Source: Perlabentimonas gracilis (lineage in GTDB: Bacteria; Bacteroidota; Bacteroidia; Bacteroidales; Tenuifilaceae). Taken from it: 64,000 bases of DNA. This document shows, one piece after another, positions 52,142 through 56,794 of the stretch. The notes beneath the pieces were generated by a model. That model did no database searches, was not told the DNA's origin, and saw only the letters and a program-made list of their open reading frames with translations. The position numbers and the translations under genes were made by a program. The stretch covers positions 1 to 64,000 of the forward strand of contig NZ_JAANIG010000026.1 in the NCBI RefSeq assembly GCF_011174675.1, read 5' to 3'. Every line of letters begins with the position of its first letter. Position 1 is the first letter of the stretch.

Positions 52142-53287
52142 CTACTCTTCAACCACCATTTCTAGCTTTGCTTCGCTCCCTGTGGTGAAAAAGCTTGGTG
52201 TAACGTTTCGGAGGTTGTAACGCGAGCTCATCGACTCGCCATATGCTCCAGCTGAGCGAATAGCCAACAGATCGCCGCGCATAAGTTTTGGGAGTTCAAT
52301 CTCGGTGCCAAACACATCGCTACTTTCGCAAATTGGCCCCACTACATCATAGGTGTCACGCTGATCAACCAGAGGACTAACACAGTAAATACTGTGTTTA
52401 GCCTGGTATAGGGCAGGTCGAATTAGGTTGTTCATGCCTGCGTCAACAACTGCAAAGGAGCGATCTTCGCCTCGTTTGATATAAAGTACTCTGGTGAGTA
52501 GCTCGCCACATTGTCCAACCAGCGATCGTCCCGGTTCAAAGTGAACACTAACCTCATTCCCAACGTTGAGGTTGGTGGCAAAGGTACCAAAATATTCGGA
52601 GAAGTTTGGTATGGGGTTCTCCAACGGGTTCTCGTAATCGATGCCCAATCCCCCGCCTAGGTTGATGTATGTTAGCATTAGGTTGCTAAACCGTTGGTAT
52701 ACCCCATTAGCAAATTGGGCCAGCTGGGTAAATTTTGTGAAATCGAGAATTTGTGAGCCAATATGGAAATGAAAGCCAATAAGTTTCACCCCGTTAAGGG
52801 TAGGTAGAACCCTAATGGCCTCCTCCAGCTCCTCATTGCTAAAGCCAAATTTATTTTGGCTAGTTCCTGTGGTGATGTACTTGTGCGTACCAGCATCGAG
52901 GTTAGGGTTTAGCCTAAGGGCAACGGGCGTTACTTTTCGCTTGGTAGCCGATAGTTCATCTATTACCAGCAGCTCCTCGAATGATTCTACATGAATACAT
53001 TGAATTCCCTTAACAATGGCTAGCTCTATCTCTGCATTGGTTTTGCCTACCCCAGCAAATACAATTCTGCCTGCAGCAAATCCTGCATCGAGAGCTGCTT
53101 GCACCTCGTTGCCGCTCACGCAGTCGGCACCTATACCACTTTGGGCAATTGTTTCGAGAATTCTAGGGTTTGAGTTGGCCTTTACGGCGTAATGGAGGTT
53201 GTATCCGTATGGCGAAGATTCGGCTATCGCCACATCCAGTGTTTGCCTTAGCAGGCCTAGGTTGTATCTATATGCTGGTGTTTCCAT
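52142..53287 (-). CDS. lysA: Diaminopimelate decarboxylase
   Basis: Last step of lysine synthesis: meso-diaminopimelate to lysine, PLP-dependent. 381 residues. The PLP lysine is in LHYAVKANSN, with GFHFHIGSQI, GGGLGIDY, EPGRSLVGQCG and the substrate Cys in CESSDVFG all present. The gene overlaps lysC by 20 bp (53268-53287), so the two are translationally coupled and under the lysC attenuator. Confidence 0.95.
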   Translation of the reverse strand: METPAYRYNLGLLRQTLDVAIAESSPYGYNLHYAVKANSNPRILETIAQSGIGADCVSGNEVQAALDAGFAAGRIVFAGVGKTNAEIELAIVKGIQCIHVESFEELLVIDELSATKRKVTPVALRLNPNLDAGTHKYITTGTSQNKFGFSNEELEEAIRVLPTLNGVKLIGFHFHIGSQILDFTKFTQLAQFANGVYQRFSNLMLTYINLGGGLGIDYENPLENPIPNFSEYFGTFATNLNVGNEVSVHFEPGRSLVGQCGELLTRVLYIKRGEDRSFAVVDAGMNNLIRPALYQAKHSIYCVSPLVDQRDTYDVVGPICESSDVFGTEIELPKLMRGDLLAIRSAGAYGESMSSRYNLRNVTPSFFTTGSEAKLEMVVEE

Positions 53288-54620
53288 TATTTACTGTGCT
53301 TACTGTTTGTGGGTTATTAACTACTTGCTGTAATGCCCGTAGGGCATCAATTTTTCTCTCGCTTTGAACCAAAAGGGTTATGTTGTGCGAGCTTCCTCCG
53401 TACGATATTAGGCTGATGGGAATATTTCGTAACGAATTGAATACCCTTGAGGCCATTCCTGGGTTTTGTGCAAGAAAATCGCCTACCACGCAGATAATGG
53501 TTTGGCCCTGCTCAACCTCTACAGTGGAAAACGATGTAAGTGCCTTAAGGATATGCTCCAGATGGCTTGTATCGTCAATGGTTAGGGTTAAAGCAACTTC
53601 CGATGTGGTGATAAGGTCGACCGGGGTTTTATACTCATTAAAGATGTCGAAGACCTTCTTCAGAAAACCGTGTGCCATCAGCATTCTAAGCGATTTAATT
53701 CGAATGGCGGTAATGCCATCCTTGGCGGCAACTGCTTTAATACCACCTTCACGTTGTTGCGATGTAATGGTGGTGCCTACATCGTTGGGGTTAAGGGTGT
53801 TCTTGAGCACCACTGGGATATTCTTTTCCTGGCATGGGTGAATGGTTGATGGATGAAGAATTTTAGCTCCAAAGTAGGCCAGCTCTGCCGCTTCGTCGAA
53901 CGAAAGTTCACGGATGGGCAGCGTTCCCTCAACGTATCGAGGATCGTTGTTGTGGAATCCATCAATATCGGTCCATATTTGCACTTCGCTAGCATTTATG
54001 GTATGGCCAATTATTGCTGCGGTATAGTCGCTACCCCCACGTTTTAGATTGTCGACCTCTCCACGGGAGTTTCGGCATATAAAACCTTGGGTTATTATAA
54101 CATTGATTCCTGTGCATGAGTCGAGCAGTCGGTTTAAATTCTCGGCAATATAATAATGGTCTGGTTCGCCATCCTTATCAATCCGCATAAAGCTAAGTGC
54201 AGGTAGTAGTGCGGAGTCTACGCGTTGCTCGTTGAGGTACAGATGGAATAGGTTGGTGGACAGGATTTCGCCTACGGCCAGTATCTCTTTTTTTGCAGTT
54301 GAGTCTGCATTCTCAACTTTGTTGTACAATTCGTTAAAAATCTTTTTAATCAACTCTTTACCCTTCATTTTGTATTTTGATGATGCAAAAAGGTTGTCGC
54401 AAGTGGTCATGTGCATCTGTTCAACCTCTTTCAGCTTATCCTTAGCCAGCTTGGTATTACCCTTTGCCGCCAGGTTTGTTGATTCCACTAGAATATTGGT
54501 TACCCCGGCCATAGCCGATAGAACCACTACAATGGGTTCTGTGGTGGGGATAATGCGCCTCAGGTTCTGAATGCGCTCTGCGGATCCCACCGATGTGCCG
54601 CCAAACTTTAAAACTTTCAT
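53268..54620 (-). CDS. lysC: Aspartate kinase (lysine-type, monofunctional)
   Basis: First step of the aspartate pathway leading to lysine, threonine and methionine. 450 residues. The catalytic motif KFGGTSVG is at the N terminus, then RGGSDYTAAIIG and DIDGFHNNDPR. Two ACT domains in the C-terminal 150 residues (LMAHGFLKKVFDIFNE, LISYGGSSHNITLL) allow feedback inhibition. It is not fused to homoserine dehydrogenase. Its 5' region carries a leader peptide and terminator (see 54648-54867), pointing to attenuation. It overlaps lysA. Confidence 0.96.
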   Translation of the reverse strand: MKVLKFGGTSVGSAERIQNLRRIIPTTEPIVVVLSAMAGVTNILVESTNLAAKGNTKLAKDKLKEVEQMHMTTCDNLFASSKYKMKGKELIKKIFNELYNKVENADSTAKKEILAVGEILSTNLFHLYLNEQRVDSALLPALSFMRIDKDGEPDHYYIAENLNRLLDSCTGINVIITQGFICRNSRGEVDNLKRGGSDYTAAIIGHTINASEVQIWTDIDGFHNNDPRYVEGTLPIRELSFDEAAELAYFGAKILHPSTIHPCQEKNIPVVLKNTLNPNDVGTTITSQQREGGIKAVAAKDGITAIRIKSLRMLMAHGFLKKVFDIFNEYKTPVDLITTSEVALTLTIDDTSHLEHILKALTSFSTVEVEQGQTIICVVGDFLAQNPGMASRVFNSLRNIPISLISYGGSSHNITLLVQSERKIDALRALQQVVNNPQTVSTVNNGNTSI

Positions 54621-54647: not shown

Positions 54648-54678
54648 AAAAAAAGGCCTGCAGAATTCTGCAGGCCTT
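54648..54678 (-). terminator. Attenuator terminator upstream of lysC
   Basis: A perfect palindrome at 54653-54678 (arms GGCCTGCAGAA/TTCTGCAGGCC plus AA/TT), followed on the minus strand by seven T (54654-54648). The T-tract ends 27 bases before the lysC ATG. It lies inside the operon's leader, so it must be read through for lysC expression. Confidence 0.85.
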
Positions 54679-54704
54679 GTATCTATCTAGATTTAGAGTT
54701 TTCG

Positions 54705-54818
54705 CTATTCACCCATTTCACCTAGCCTGCGTAAGAACATACGTTTCTTCATCAACATAGCCATAGCCATGTCGTTACGTTTATCCTTAAGCATAGAGGT
54801 GAAAATGGTCAGTGTCAT
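54705..54818 (-). CDS. Met/Lys-rich leader peptide of the lysC operon
   Basis: A 37-codon ORF starting with ATG at 54818, about 16 bases after the predicted transcript start, and ending TAG at 54705, 27 bases before the terminator. It has 8 Met and 4 Lys, concentrated in residues 17-27 (MAMAMLMKKRM), and 3 Thr near its start. Met, Lys and Thr are all end products of the pathway that aspartate kinase opens. Codons 30-32 contain GCAGGCT (54730-54724), which can pair with the 5' arm of the terminator. It is likely a control element, not a functional protein. Confidence 0.7.
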   Translation of the reverse strand: MTLTIFTSMLKDKRNDMAMAMLMKKRMFLRRLGEMGE

Positions 54819-54837
54819 AACTTGCTGTTTACGGGTG

Positions 54838-54867
54838 CAATATTAGTCATAATTTTTTTACTGCAAA
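54838..54867 (-). promoter_or_regulatory. Promoter of the lysC leader
   Basis: Minus strand: TTTG (54867-54864), an 18-nt spacer, TAATATTG (54845-54838), one mismatch from TAnnTTTG. It lies 19 bases before the leader ATG. Confidence 0.5.
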
Positions 54868-54982: not shown

Positions 54983-56794
54983 ATGAAAAGATTAGCCTAT
55001 ACAGCCATTGCGTTTTTTATGCTTGCGAGTAGCCATGCGCAATATTATAGCGACAGACCCCTCGAAATGACTTTTGAACAGTCCGATTTCTTTTTTTCTC
55101 CATTGCACATAAATCCATATGGTACCCATAATTTTGCAATGGCCTCGCAGCTTTCACTAGATCACCCGCTGCTCAATATTCAGCGAAACCCTTCCACGGT
55201 TTCCGAGGACAGATCCGATTCGTTACCATCAAATTATTTATATATCGATTTTAGAAATTCCTTAAGTACTACAAATAGAGGTTATTCAGGGATTTACCCT
55301 ATGGTTTACGACTATATCCCCAGGTATGGCTATTACTACACCTCTAAACGAAACGAAGTATCACCCTTGCTGAGCTTGGCATATTTAACACAACTCCCTG
55401 TTTTAAATAACTCCATTTCGATAGGAGCAACCTATCAGATAATAACTCAGGGCGAGCGGTACTATGCTATTCCTTACGATATTTACCGAAGCAATGCAGG
55501 GAAAACTTTTGACGGATATACCTATATGGGAACCGAGGGCTATACAATCGAAGATCGTTTTTCAGGTTCCGATGAAATGTACCATGAGGGGCATTCGTTA
55601 AATCTTTTCCTTAGTTGGAAGCCCACTGATGCCTTATCGATTGGCGCTAAGGCTGGTCGTTTTATTTTCGATCGTGAGGGAAGTTTTGGGAGTAGCAATC
55701 TTTGGAATCAGAGGCCAGATTACCAATCGTATTGGAAAAATTTCGAGAACCGAAGTCAGGAGTATGATCATTGGGATTTCTCTCTTGGATTAAACTATTT
55801 GGCAGGTAAAAATAAAATCGGTTTCTACGCTGGTTATTTAACTGGAACGGCAACTCAACTATTGGACAGGGACGATGAATCGATCTCGAATAGTGGACAG
55901 GAGGGTAGCACCAGCTGGAGCGATTACAGTAGTTGGTACGTGTCAGATCAGAGTTGGGAGCATATGGGACAAAATATTTACGGTGGATTTCAGTGGGAGC
56001 GGGAGGTTCGATCCGATTTAACTTTTCGCTTGTTATACAACCTGTCATTGTCTGAACAGGATATTTCACTAGCCTCAAGCATTGAGAGTGAATCGGAGAA
56101 CGATTACTACTACGAGTACTCCAGCAGGGTAAGCGAAAGTAATGGGTATTCCAATATGCACGATTATAGAACGGGCTCGGGTATGCGAACCAAGTTGACC
56201 CATTCTGCTGGCGCAGGGTTTGAGTGGCAGCTGGGCGAAGGTAAAAAGGTTCGATTTGGAGCCATAGCCGGAATTCGCAAGCAGCAAACCGACACCAGCG
56301 AGGATGTTGATGCCTATGCAGAGTCGTACTATTACTCAAGGTACGATTACGAATCAACAATAAATACGTGGGAAAGGTACACCAGAACTGTCGAGGACAA
56401 AACTATTCTTTGGGAGTTCGATTCTCGATTGAGATCTTTTCAAATACCCATATTCTACGAACGGAGTTATAGCGACCGTTTCACAATGATTTTTGGATAT
56501 AATCGTACGATGAATTTTTGGCTGGTCGAAAGTAGTACATTGATTCTTTACGATTATCGCGAGAGGGAATTTGATGGAGACATAACAATAGATCAAAACG
56601 TAGGCGAGAGAATTACTGAACCCCGCGATAGGGTTAGTCGTGTGTCCAATGCCTTTATGGGTGGGCTAAAGTTTAATCCAACCCAGCGATTTGGGGTCGA
56701 ACTAATCGTTTCACCTGTTTTCGAGAAGAGTGCATTATCAAGTGAGCACCACTTTGGAATACAGGTTTGGCTGGGCGTGAATATGAATTTGTAA
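54983..56794 (+). CDS. Predicted outer-membrane beta-barrel protein, unknown family
   Basis: A 603-residue protein with a signal peptide (MKRLAYTAIAFFMLASSHAQ) and many alternating Tyr/Ser/Asp-rich beta strands (FRNSLSTTNRGYSGIYPMVYDYI, KIGFYAGYLTGTATQLL). The C-terminal strand HHFGIQVWLGVNMNL is compatible with BAM insertion. I do not recognise a family. It is unusually rich in Tyr and Ser for a porin. It is followed 137 bp later by the PD40 lipoprotein. Confidence 0.6.
   Translation: MKRLAYTAIAFFMLASSHAQYYSDRPLEMTFEQSDFFFSPLHINPYGTHNFAMASQLSLDHPLLNIQRNPSTVSEDRSDSLPSNYLYIDFRNSLSTTNRGYSGIYPMVYDYIPRYGYYYTSKRNEVSPLLSLAYLTQLPVLNNSISIGATYQIITQGERYYAIPYDIYRSNAGKTFDGYTYMGTEGYTIEDRFSGSDEMYHEGHSLNLFLSWKPTDALSIGAKAGRFIFDREGSFGSSNLWNQRPDYQSYWKNFENRSQEYDHWDFSLGLNYLAGKNKIGFYAGYLTGTATQLLDRDDESISNSGQEGSTSWSDYSSWYVSDQSWEHMGQNIYGGFQWEREVRSDLTFRLLYNLSLSEQDISLASSIESESENDYYYEYSSRVSESNGYSNMHDYRTGSGMRTKLTHSAGAGFEWQLGEGKKVRFGAIAGIRKQQTDTSEDVDAYAESYYYSRYDYESTINTWERYTRTVEDKTILWEFDSRLRSFQIPIFYERSYSDRFTMIFGYNRTMNFWLVESSTLILYDYREREFDGDITIDQNVGERITEPRDRVSRVSNAFMGGLKFNPTQRFGVELIVSPVFEKSALSSEHHFGIQVWLGVNMNL

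Follow-up and report, generated by a model that had tools for sequence, protein, structure and literature searches.

What controls lysC and lysA in this window, by which we mean the whole 64,000-nt stretch of DNA that was analysed, and does the short ORF rich in Met and Lys codons in front of the two genes take part in that control? All parts of the element lie on the minus strand and follow one another in the order promoter boxes, leader ORF, terminator, lysC and lysA:

54838-54867, minus strand: predicted promoter, TTTG (54867-54864) and TAATATTG (54845-54838), from sequence reading
54705-54818, minus strand: leader peptide ORF, 37 codons and a TAG stop, MTLTIFTSMLKDKRNDMAMAMLMKKRMFLRRLGEMGE, with counterparts of 38-46 codons at 17 other loci
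54716-54804, minus strand: long hairpin in the leader ORF, from folding, a feature of the window leader and not general in relatives
54738-54770, minus strand: cluster of Met/Lys codons, codons 17-27 with five Met and two Lys, from sequence reading
54744-54749, minus strand: Lys codons 24-25, the "gate", codon 25 starting 16 nt upstream of segment 2
54724-54730, minus strand: antiterminator segment GCAGGCU (segment 2), codons 30-32, complementary to GGCCUGC
54668-54678, minus strand: terminator 5' arm AAGGCCTGCAG (segment 3), from a terminator scan and alignment
54648-54663, minus strand: terminator 3' arm CTGCAGGCCTT with the T tract (segment 4), from a terminator scan and alignment
53268-54620, minus strand: lysC, monofunctional aspartate kinase of 450 aa, by family model
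52142-53287, minus strand: lysA, diaminopimelate decarboxylase, overlapping the end of lysC

LysC scores 305.7 bits against TIGR00657 (cut-off 208.7) and LysA 382.2 bits against TIGR01048 (cut-off 297.9). The leader contains eight Met codons, the start counted, and four Lys codons. The terminator (54678-54653) consists of 11 pairs and a 4-nt loop, and its 7-T tract runs to 54648, ending 27 bases before the lysC ATG at 54620. The original prediction had described both this ORF, with its Met/Lys cluster at codons 17-27, and the strong terminator at this distance from lysC, and the counts and coordinates hold. It had also called the promoter consensus-like; the boxes are indeed present, but they look like a Bacteroidota-type promoter rather than a sigma-70 consensus. 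A sigma-70 scan did not report the TTTG and TAATATTG boxes, which resemble the Bacteroidota -33/-7 promoter type. Of the 18 leaders compared below, 17 (all but L014) have a TAnnnTTG box 26-30 nt ahead of their ATG, and transcription would start upstream of the leader, at the predicted promoter. The neighbouring ORF beyond the promoter (54983-56794, plus strand) is divergent. An Rfam scan of the window matched a tRNA as its sole hit, thus no riboswitch; the window has no match to the aptamer of the Lysine riboswitch (RF00168) or, at gathering score, to Thr_leader (RF00506), and the lysC locus has none to the SAM riboswitch aptamer (RF00162).

The window genome (G000, 4.37 Mb) was compared with 26 other genomes of the same family, 27 in total. 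A lysC of the window type, full or nearly so, is found in 16 of the 27, G000 included, and leader, Met/Lys codons, segment 2 and matching terminator accompany it in 16 of 16 loci. The same arrangement was found in both sampled genomes of another family, f80 (L169 and L170), among 198 genomes of the order, 71 of which carry LysC at E <= 1e-100. Conservation in relatives, on which the original prediction depended, is thus borne out. Excluding L029 (partial lysC) and L030 (37% identity), the set comprises 18 leaders of 37-46 codons, which are kin and not independent events, and covers seven genera. An intrinsic terminator stands before the first gene in 18/18 loci, and a LysA-like N-terminus, called in relatives by motif or ORF and not by family model, follows lysC in 17 of the 18, namely those whose contig reaches far enough. 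A covariance model gives one strong match per genome (69-109 bits) in the 16 family genomes whose lysC is complete or almost so and in no others of the family, where the next-best match scores 39.9 bits; at E <= 0.1, 21/27 genomes have a match, 16 of them strong. Training members match this model by construction; what is informative is that the element occurs once per genome and is lacking elsewhere. G023, with only a 120-residue fragment of lysC, is without a strong match. Across the order, 59 of 393 genomes match at E <= 0.01; six of them (four f1, two f80) reach at least 79 bits, and the remaining matches, at most 47.9 bits, were treated collectively as background.

If the element works through RNA pairing, the pairing should be conserved. 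Segment 2 reads GCAGGC in 14/18 leaders, GCAAGC in L006 and L011, GCAGGT in L014 and GTAGGC in L170, and one antiterminator pair is broken in L006 and L011. The segment lies in frame 1 in eight leaders and in frame 2 in ten; it is therefore conserved as RNA, not as peptide. In the alignment, the pairing predicted between GCAGGCU in codons 30-32 and GGCCUGC is confirmed by standard pairs in 97.6% of 126 antiterminator cells, against 16-42% when the alignment is slid; the terminator is paired in 96.9% of 195 cells, against 22-61% when slid. An alternative antiterminator using the terminator 5' arm is thus found, including in L170, where a triple compensatory change (GTAGGC / GGCCTAC / GTAGGCC) keeps both terminator arms matched. 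Co-varying stems, which had been expected of a genuine element, are seen in this compensatory variant, but both-side changes are few (2/11 terminator pairs and 1/7 antiterminator pairs), and the covariation score is matched by 29/500 shuffles for the antiterminator and 0/500 for the terminator. With so little variation in the arms, only modest covariation can be seen. In the window, the complementarity to the terminator arm is a 6-nt Watson-Crick run that 18/400 shuffles match; in seven other leaders (8/18 tested, window included), it extends over 7-8 nt and is matched by 0 to 16/400 shuffles. As the window alone is weak in this respect, the case for complementarity rests on conservation.

The codons of the leader point in the same direction. 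Over the 18 leaders, start codons excluded, Met occupies 90/729 in-frame codons, against 3/711 and 2/711 in the other frames, and Lys 109/729, against 42/711 and 49/711. The gate Lys is spelled AAA in some leaders and AAG in others. Since the Met/Lys excess is bound to one frame and both spellings occur at the gate, what is selected appears to be the amino acid. Thr and Ile make up 6.8% and 7.2% of 651 residues over 16 leaders, without a Thr/Ile run. By its sequence, the leader looks like the short ORF of a classical attenuator, rich in codons for the product of the operon, as lysA makes Lys. The position of these codons is also constrained. The frame differs, yet 18/18 leaders have a Lys codon whose first base lies 14-17 nt upstream of segment 2. 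When codon order was permuted within leaders in 20,000 trials, a Lys at that distance was found in a mean of 4.0/18 and a maximum of 12/18; among eight chosen representatives, 8/8 have the gate Lys, against a permuted mean of 2.0, and 0/20,000 trials reach 8. Farther out, each of the 18 leaders has 3-6 Met codons 19-64 nt upstream of the antiterminator segment. The leading edge of the ribosome lies about 12 nt past the first base of the A-site codon, as known from E. coli toeprints, and in our model a ribosome waiting at the gate Lys would just leave segment 2 free.

For this model, each leader was folded to the terminator loop with the ribosome footprint kept unpaired at every codon in turn; it is equilibrium folding, without kinetics or pseudoknots. 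The predicted antiterminator probability at the gate Lys is 0.69-1.00 in 18/18 leaders, and three codons past the gate it is below 0.5 in 18/18 (footprint -18..+12). Across eight footprints, the gate-ON and later-OFF counts each range from 16 to 18 of 18. As control codons, the gate Lys are thus predicted to be suitably placed in all 18 leaders and the Met codons in 16/18, the window's leader not among them; in those 16, the model puts all Met codons ahead of the switch point in the ON state. It also predicts that the response to Lys would be lost if the gate stood less than about 10 nt from GCAGGCU. In the window leader (L001), a single ribosome would turn the switch ON at one of five upstream Met codons and three of four Lys codons, the Met codons at -40 to -22 giving antiterminator probabilities of 0.00-0.07; in L011, it would do so at none of four Met codons and two of four Lys codons. 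In these two leaders, which have a competing hairpin, Met stalls are mostly OFF in the model. With a second, queued ribosome, the Met codons of L001 are predicted to be ON (0.98-1.00); in L011, some codons would be restored and the Lys gate would fall from 0.70 to 0.23-0.29.

The predicted state without a ribosome also differs between leaders. A protecting 1:2 hairpin is predicted in L001 and L011 only, its probability in the other 16/18 leaders being at most 0.06. In the window, the long hairpin 54804-54716 would hold the antiterminator region when the ribosome is absent. Without a ribosome, the antiterminator is favoured in 16/18 leaders (at least 0.83), and its probability is 0.00 in the window and 0.06 in L011. 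Near codon 5, the seven g7 leaders have GGCTTG(C/T) in common, and judged by eye this sequence could pair with GCAGGCC; in the model, this protecting hairpin wins in L011 only.

These results revise the original prediction in its details. It had supposed that a stall on the Met/Lys codons frees the segment; the model agrees for Lys codon 25 (0.86) but not for a lone ribosome at Met codons 17, 19, 21 and 23 (0.00-0.07). It had read the control as Met-rich; the Met codons are there, but the decisive position is Lys in 18/18 leaders and Met comes earlier. Its claim that a ribosome reaching the stop codon covers the segment needs qualifying, as the segment lies 17-23 nt upstream of the stop and not squarely beneath such a ribosome; in L002, L009, L010, L012, L013 and L014, the segment is predicted to be free (0.56-1.00) once the ribosome has arrived there. 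In those six leaders, shut-off would thus need tight timing, with the ribosome on or just past the segment. The attenuator reading itself gains support from the conserved parts, the gate Lys in 18/18 and a switch that operates in 18/18 leaders as modelled.

We therefore propose that lysC-lysA is quite likely preceded by a ribosome-mediated transcription attenuator that senses at least Lys; the sequences themselves show its parts and that these are conserved in two families, as well as the Met/Lys excess in one frame and the fixed Lys distance. RNA polymerase would make the leader, and a ribosome would translate the Met/Lys-rich ORF close behind. When Lys-tRNA (at the last gate) or Met-tRNA (at the earlier gates) is short, the ribosome would wait with its front no farther along than the beginning of GCAGGCU. 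The free segment would then pair with the terminator 5' arm, no terminator would form, and lysC-lysA would be transcribed. When both amino acids are plentiful, the ribosome would overrun the segment, the terminator would form, and transcription would end before lysC. The ON and OFF states are those of the folding model, and stalling at the gates and the response of termination are what we infer. That Met is sensed as well as Lys we regard as somewhat probable, and with a slight preference we picture a two-amino-acid OR gate, Met serving the early gates and Lys the last one, which evolved from a lysine-only leader such as other families are likely to have. If this is true, one aspartate kinase would respond whenever Lys or Met, both end products of the branched aspartate pathway, runs short.

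The main competing explanation is a lysine-only attenuator, in which the Lys codons near the antiterminator regulate and the Met codons serve otherwise, for example as extra in-frame starts that would maintain translation of the leader in a phylum said not to depend on Shine-Dalgarno sites. It accounts well for the Lys at the decisive position in 18/18 leaders, for the failure of most modelled Met stalls in L001 and L011, and for Lys-rich leaders before lysC in other families that lack internal Met or have a single one near their end (L018, L031, L032 and L206). Two family genomes also fit it: G001 (96% complete) and G025 (77% complete) keep the leader Met codons, and neither hom nor metX was found in them, so that no Met branch is seen. 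This absence speaks against Met sensing there, or it reflects recent loss or missing sequence. Moreover, a SAM-I riboswitch is already in place at the met locus. What a lysine-only attenuator leaves unexplained is that all 18 leaders keep three to six Met codons at 19-64 nt from the segment while the positions of these codons vary between genera, and that the Met codons upstream of the switch point would all be ON in 16/18 leaders. We consider it unlikely. The Lys-rich, Met-poor leaders of a few other families hint, as a lead only, at a Lys attenuator that later acquired Met codons.

The genes of the wider pathway were surveyed as well. G000 has a metY-metX-hom-metH run followed by a metF-like ORF; MetY, Hom and MetH exceed their family-model cut-offs, and MetX is the best match yet below its cut-offs. 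A SAM-I riboswitch lies directly upstream of metY in G000 (L161:11748-11851) and is present in 8/8 family hom regions examined (L161-L168; 18 genomes have Hom). It appears that the methionine genes are controlled via SAM and lysC-lysA via the Met/Lys leader. A lysine riboswitch occurs in 1/27 family genomes (G026:C48:2800-2981, L246), where by eye it precedes substrate-binding-protein-like and permease-like ORFs; G026 is listed at 4% contamination, and the riboswitch contig is possibly a contaminant. ThrC exceeds its cut-off in 17/27 family genomes, including 13 of the 16 that carry the leader, and no ThrC above the cut-off is found in G000, G001 and G005. An account of the leader in which the pathway makes no end product but Lys and Met thus cannot hold generally, given ThrC in 17/27 genomes.

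Several further observations concern this pathway. Upstream of a bifunctional thrA (aspartate kinase/homoserine dehydrogenase) in G021:C101 (L122) lies a leader-like ORF with nine consecutive Thr codons, MFASSFSITTTTTTTTTPVRE as translated by eye; classical attenuation is thus probably at home in the family. A second aspartate kinase is found at L125:3582-4967 (G000:C51:9689-10834) and also at L112, L114-L116, L118-L120, L123 and L124; in G000, it adjoins a divergent ORF that by eye is fructose-bisphosphatase-like. The sequence AAACGTTTGCG stands upstream of the second aspartate kinase in nine family loci and looks like a repressor operator. At L143 (G000:C11), the end of metX and the first hom codons are tandemly duplicated, leaving a 25-residue MetX remnant, which is either real or an assembly artefact.

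An arrest peptide is another conceivable explanation, whereby the nascent chain stalls the ribosome on a small molecule (lysine, SAM or methionine) and not on uncharged tRNA. The place of the stall is fixed relative to the antiterminator, and the residues before it are alike within genera, as an arrest peptide might require. However, the spacing from Met to the gate Lys varies by genus group (-40, -34, -28 and -22 in L001; -61, -46, -43 and -31 in L004), which means that types of amino acid are shared rather than a fixed motif. A stall would also switch the operon ON, fitting shortage rather than product excess, and we regard an arrest peptide as very unlikely.

A plain terminator, which only ends transcription or yields a small RNA beside an incidental ORF and incidental complementarity, seems scarcely credible. 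In its favour, the shuffles that match the window complement (18/400) can be cited, as can the antiterminator-terminator pattern, which occurs once in G000 and in 8/393 order genomes: outside the family, its matches are mostly terminators behind unrelated ORFs, four of the five lying just behind an ORF stop and L141 not being placed, and no lysC was found downstream of them within the 1.5 kb examined. Against it stand the frame-bound Met/Lys excess, a segment kept in two frames and the Lys distance fixed in 18/18; besides, as the upstream neighbour ORF (54983-56794) is divergent, no transcript from it needs to be ended here. Equally hard to credit is an uncatalogued riboswitch or protein-bound leader that is not translated, since the strong folding of the window leader (54833-54640, terminator included: -67.1 kcal/mol against -40.4 +/- 3.8 for shuffles, z -7.0) is set against the lack of an Rfam match, selection on the codons of one frame and, in individual folds, no structure common to the 18 leaders beyond terminator and antiterminator.

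How far does the proposed Lys attenuator extend? Among the matches listed, the nearest named LysC relatives, including Marinifilum and Labilibaculum MAGs, have 58-59% identity, which suggests a member of the Bacteroidales. A terminator lies within 160 nt of lysC in 15/80 named loci, the best 80 of a longer list; of these 80, 13 were read fully, and related GCCTGCA- or ACCTGCA-type terminators with short ORFs are found at L032, L035, L036, L039, L041, L046 and L064. In the order search, 6 of 57 lysC upstream regions, a set that counts L169 and L170, have a terminator; the lysC start was left at its default for L180, L217, L222 and L223, where the motif was not found, and was set by hand for nine others. 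Nine leaders outside f1 and f80 were modelled: L018, L032, L064 and L206 are predicted to switch 1-3 codons after a Lys codon, and the folding model gives no clear switch for L036, L039, L041, L046 and L180. A general Lys attenuator of lysC beyond f1 and f80 is thus only a lead. Other arrangements were noticed on the way. The leaders of L035, L036 and L041, from uncultured Bacteroidetes, are of another shape (KK..W..H peptides), and L035 and L041 have CAGGTC/GACCTG segment-terminator pairs. At the Sphingobacterium loci L076, L077, L088 and L093, lysC is preceded by a common terminator of 13 pairs, about 102-67 nt upstream of the gene, and no Met/Lys leader was recognised at these four.

Among the closest known systems is the thrL attenuator of E. 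coli (RF00506), in which a Thr/Ile-rich, bivalent leader precedes an aspartate-kinase gene and decides between antiterminator and terminator. The lysC leader resembles it in having an end-product-rich leader peptide before an aspartate-kinase gene and competing antiterminator and terminator, and differs in that Met and Lys take the place of Thr and Ile, the genes downstream are a monofunctional lysC and lysA, and there is no Rfam match. In the trp, his, leu and phe attenuators, the position of the ribosome picks the antiterminator or the terminator, and in our model the choice in the lysC leader would be set likewise; unlike in those systems, 16/18 lysC leaders are without a predicted 1:2 hairpin, and the ribosome itself would mask segment 2. 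Control of the lysine synthesis genes is usually ascribed to riboswitches, that of the methionine genes to riboswitches or repressors. The lysine riboswitch (L box, RF00168), known before lysC elsewhere, has the same target gene and also acts by premature termination; however, it binds lysine directly, and in this family it occurs in one of 27 genomes, before a transporter-like gene.

Reports on other bacteria give further points of comparison. A survey of Actinobacteria (PMC1262725) agrees on the L box for lysine and the S box for methionine genes, and in that group it saw no RNA element conserved at the operons for lysine or methionine; a survey of Shewanella places lysC under a lysine riboswitch (PMC2659441). 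In Sinorhizobium meliloti, the candidate leader SEP5 (PMC10117765), with six Thr and three Lys codons, belongs to the 5'-UTR of a gene for aspartate dehydrogenase. It is similar in carrying codons of two aspartate-family amino acids and differs in the pair (Thr/Lys), the gene and the host, an alphaproteobacterium; the accessible part of its description contains no terminator or antiterminator. Within the same phylum, Flavobacterium psychrophilum is described as giving "strong clues" of leader-peptide attenuation upstream of amino-acid biosynthesis operons (PMC9723704), with elements before pheA and hisG among others, but not lysC; "lysC" and "aspartokinase" are absent from the main text of that paper. 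Short ORFs in long 5'-UTRs of B. thetaiotaomicron are reminiscent of leader peptides (PMC7366714). In searches of the open-licence literature in PubMed Central, the titles, abstracts and passages retrieved contained no attenuator before lysC whose leader peptide is keyed to codons for Lys or Met, and the titles and abstract openings described neither a lysC leader-peptide attenuator in Bacteroidota nor one based on Met codons. Set beside these systems, the lysC leader would be a switch of familiar type that senses an unusual pair of amino acids: a single leader seems to respond to Lys and Met before an enzyme that feeds both branches, and its gate Lys, 14-17 nt from the segment across seven genera, makes the reach of the ribosome directly testable.
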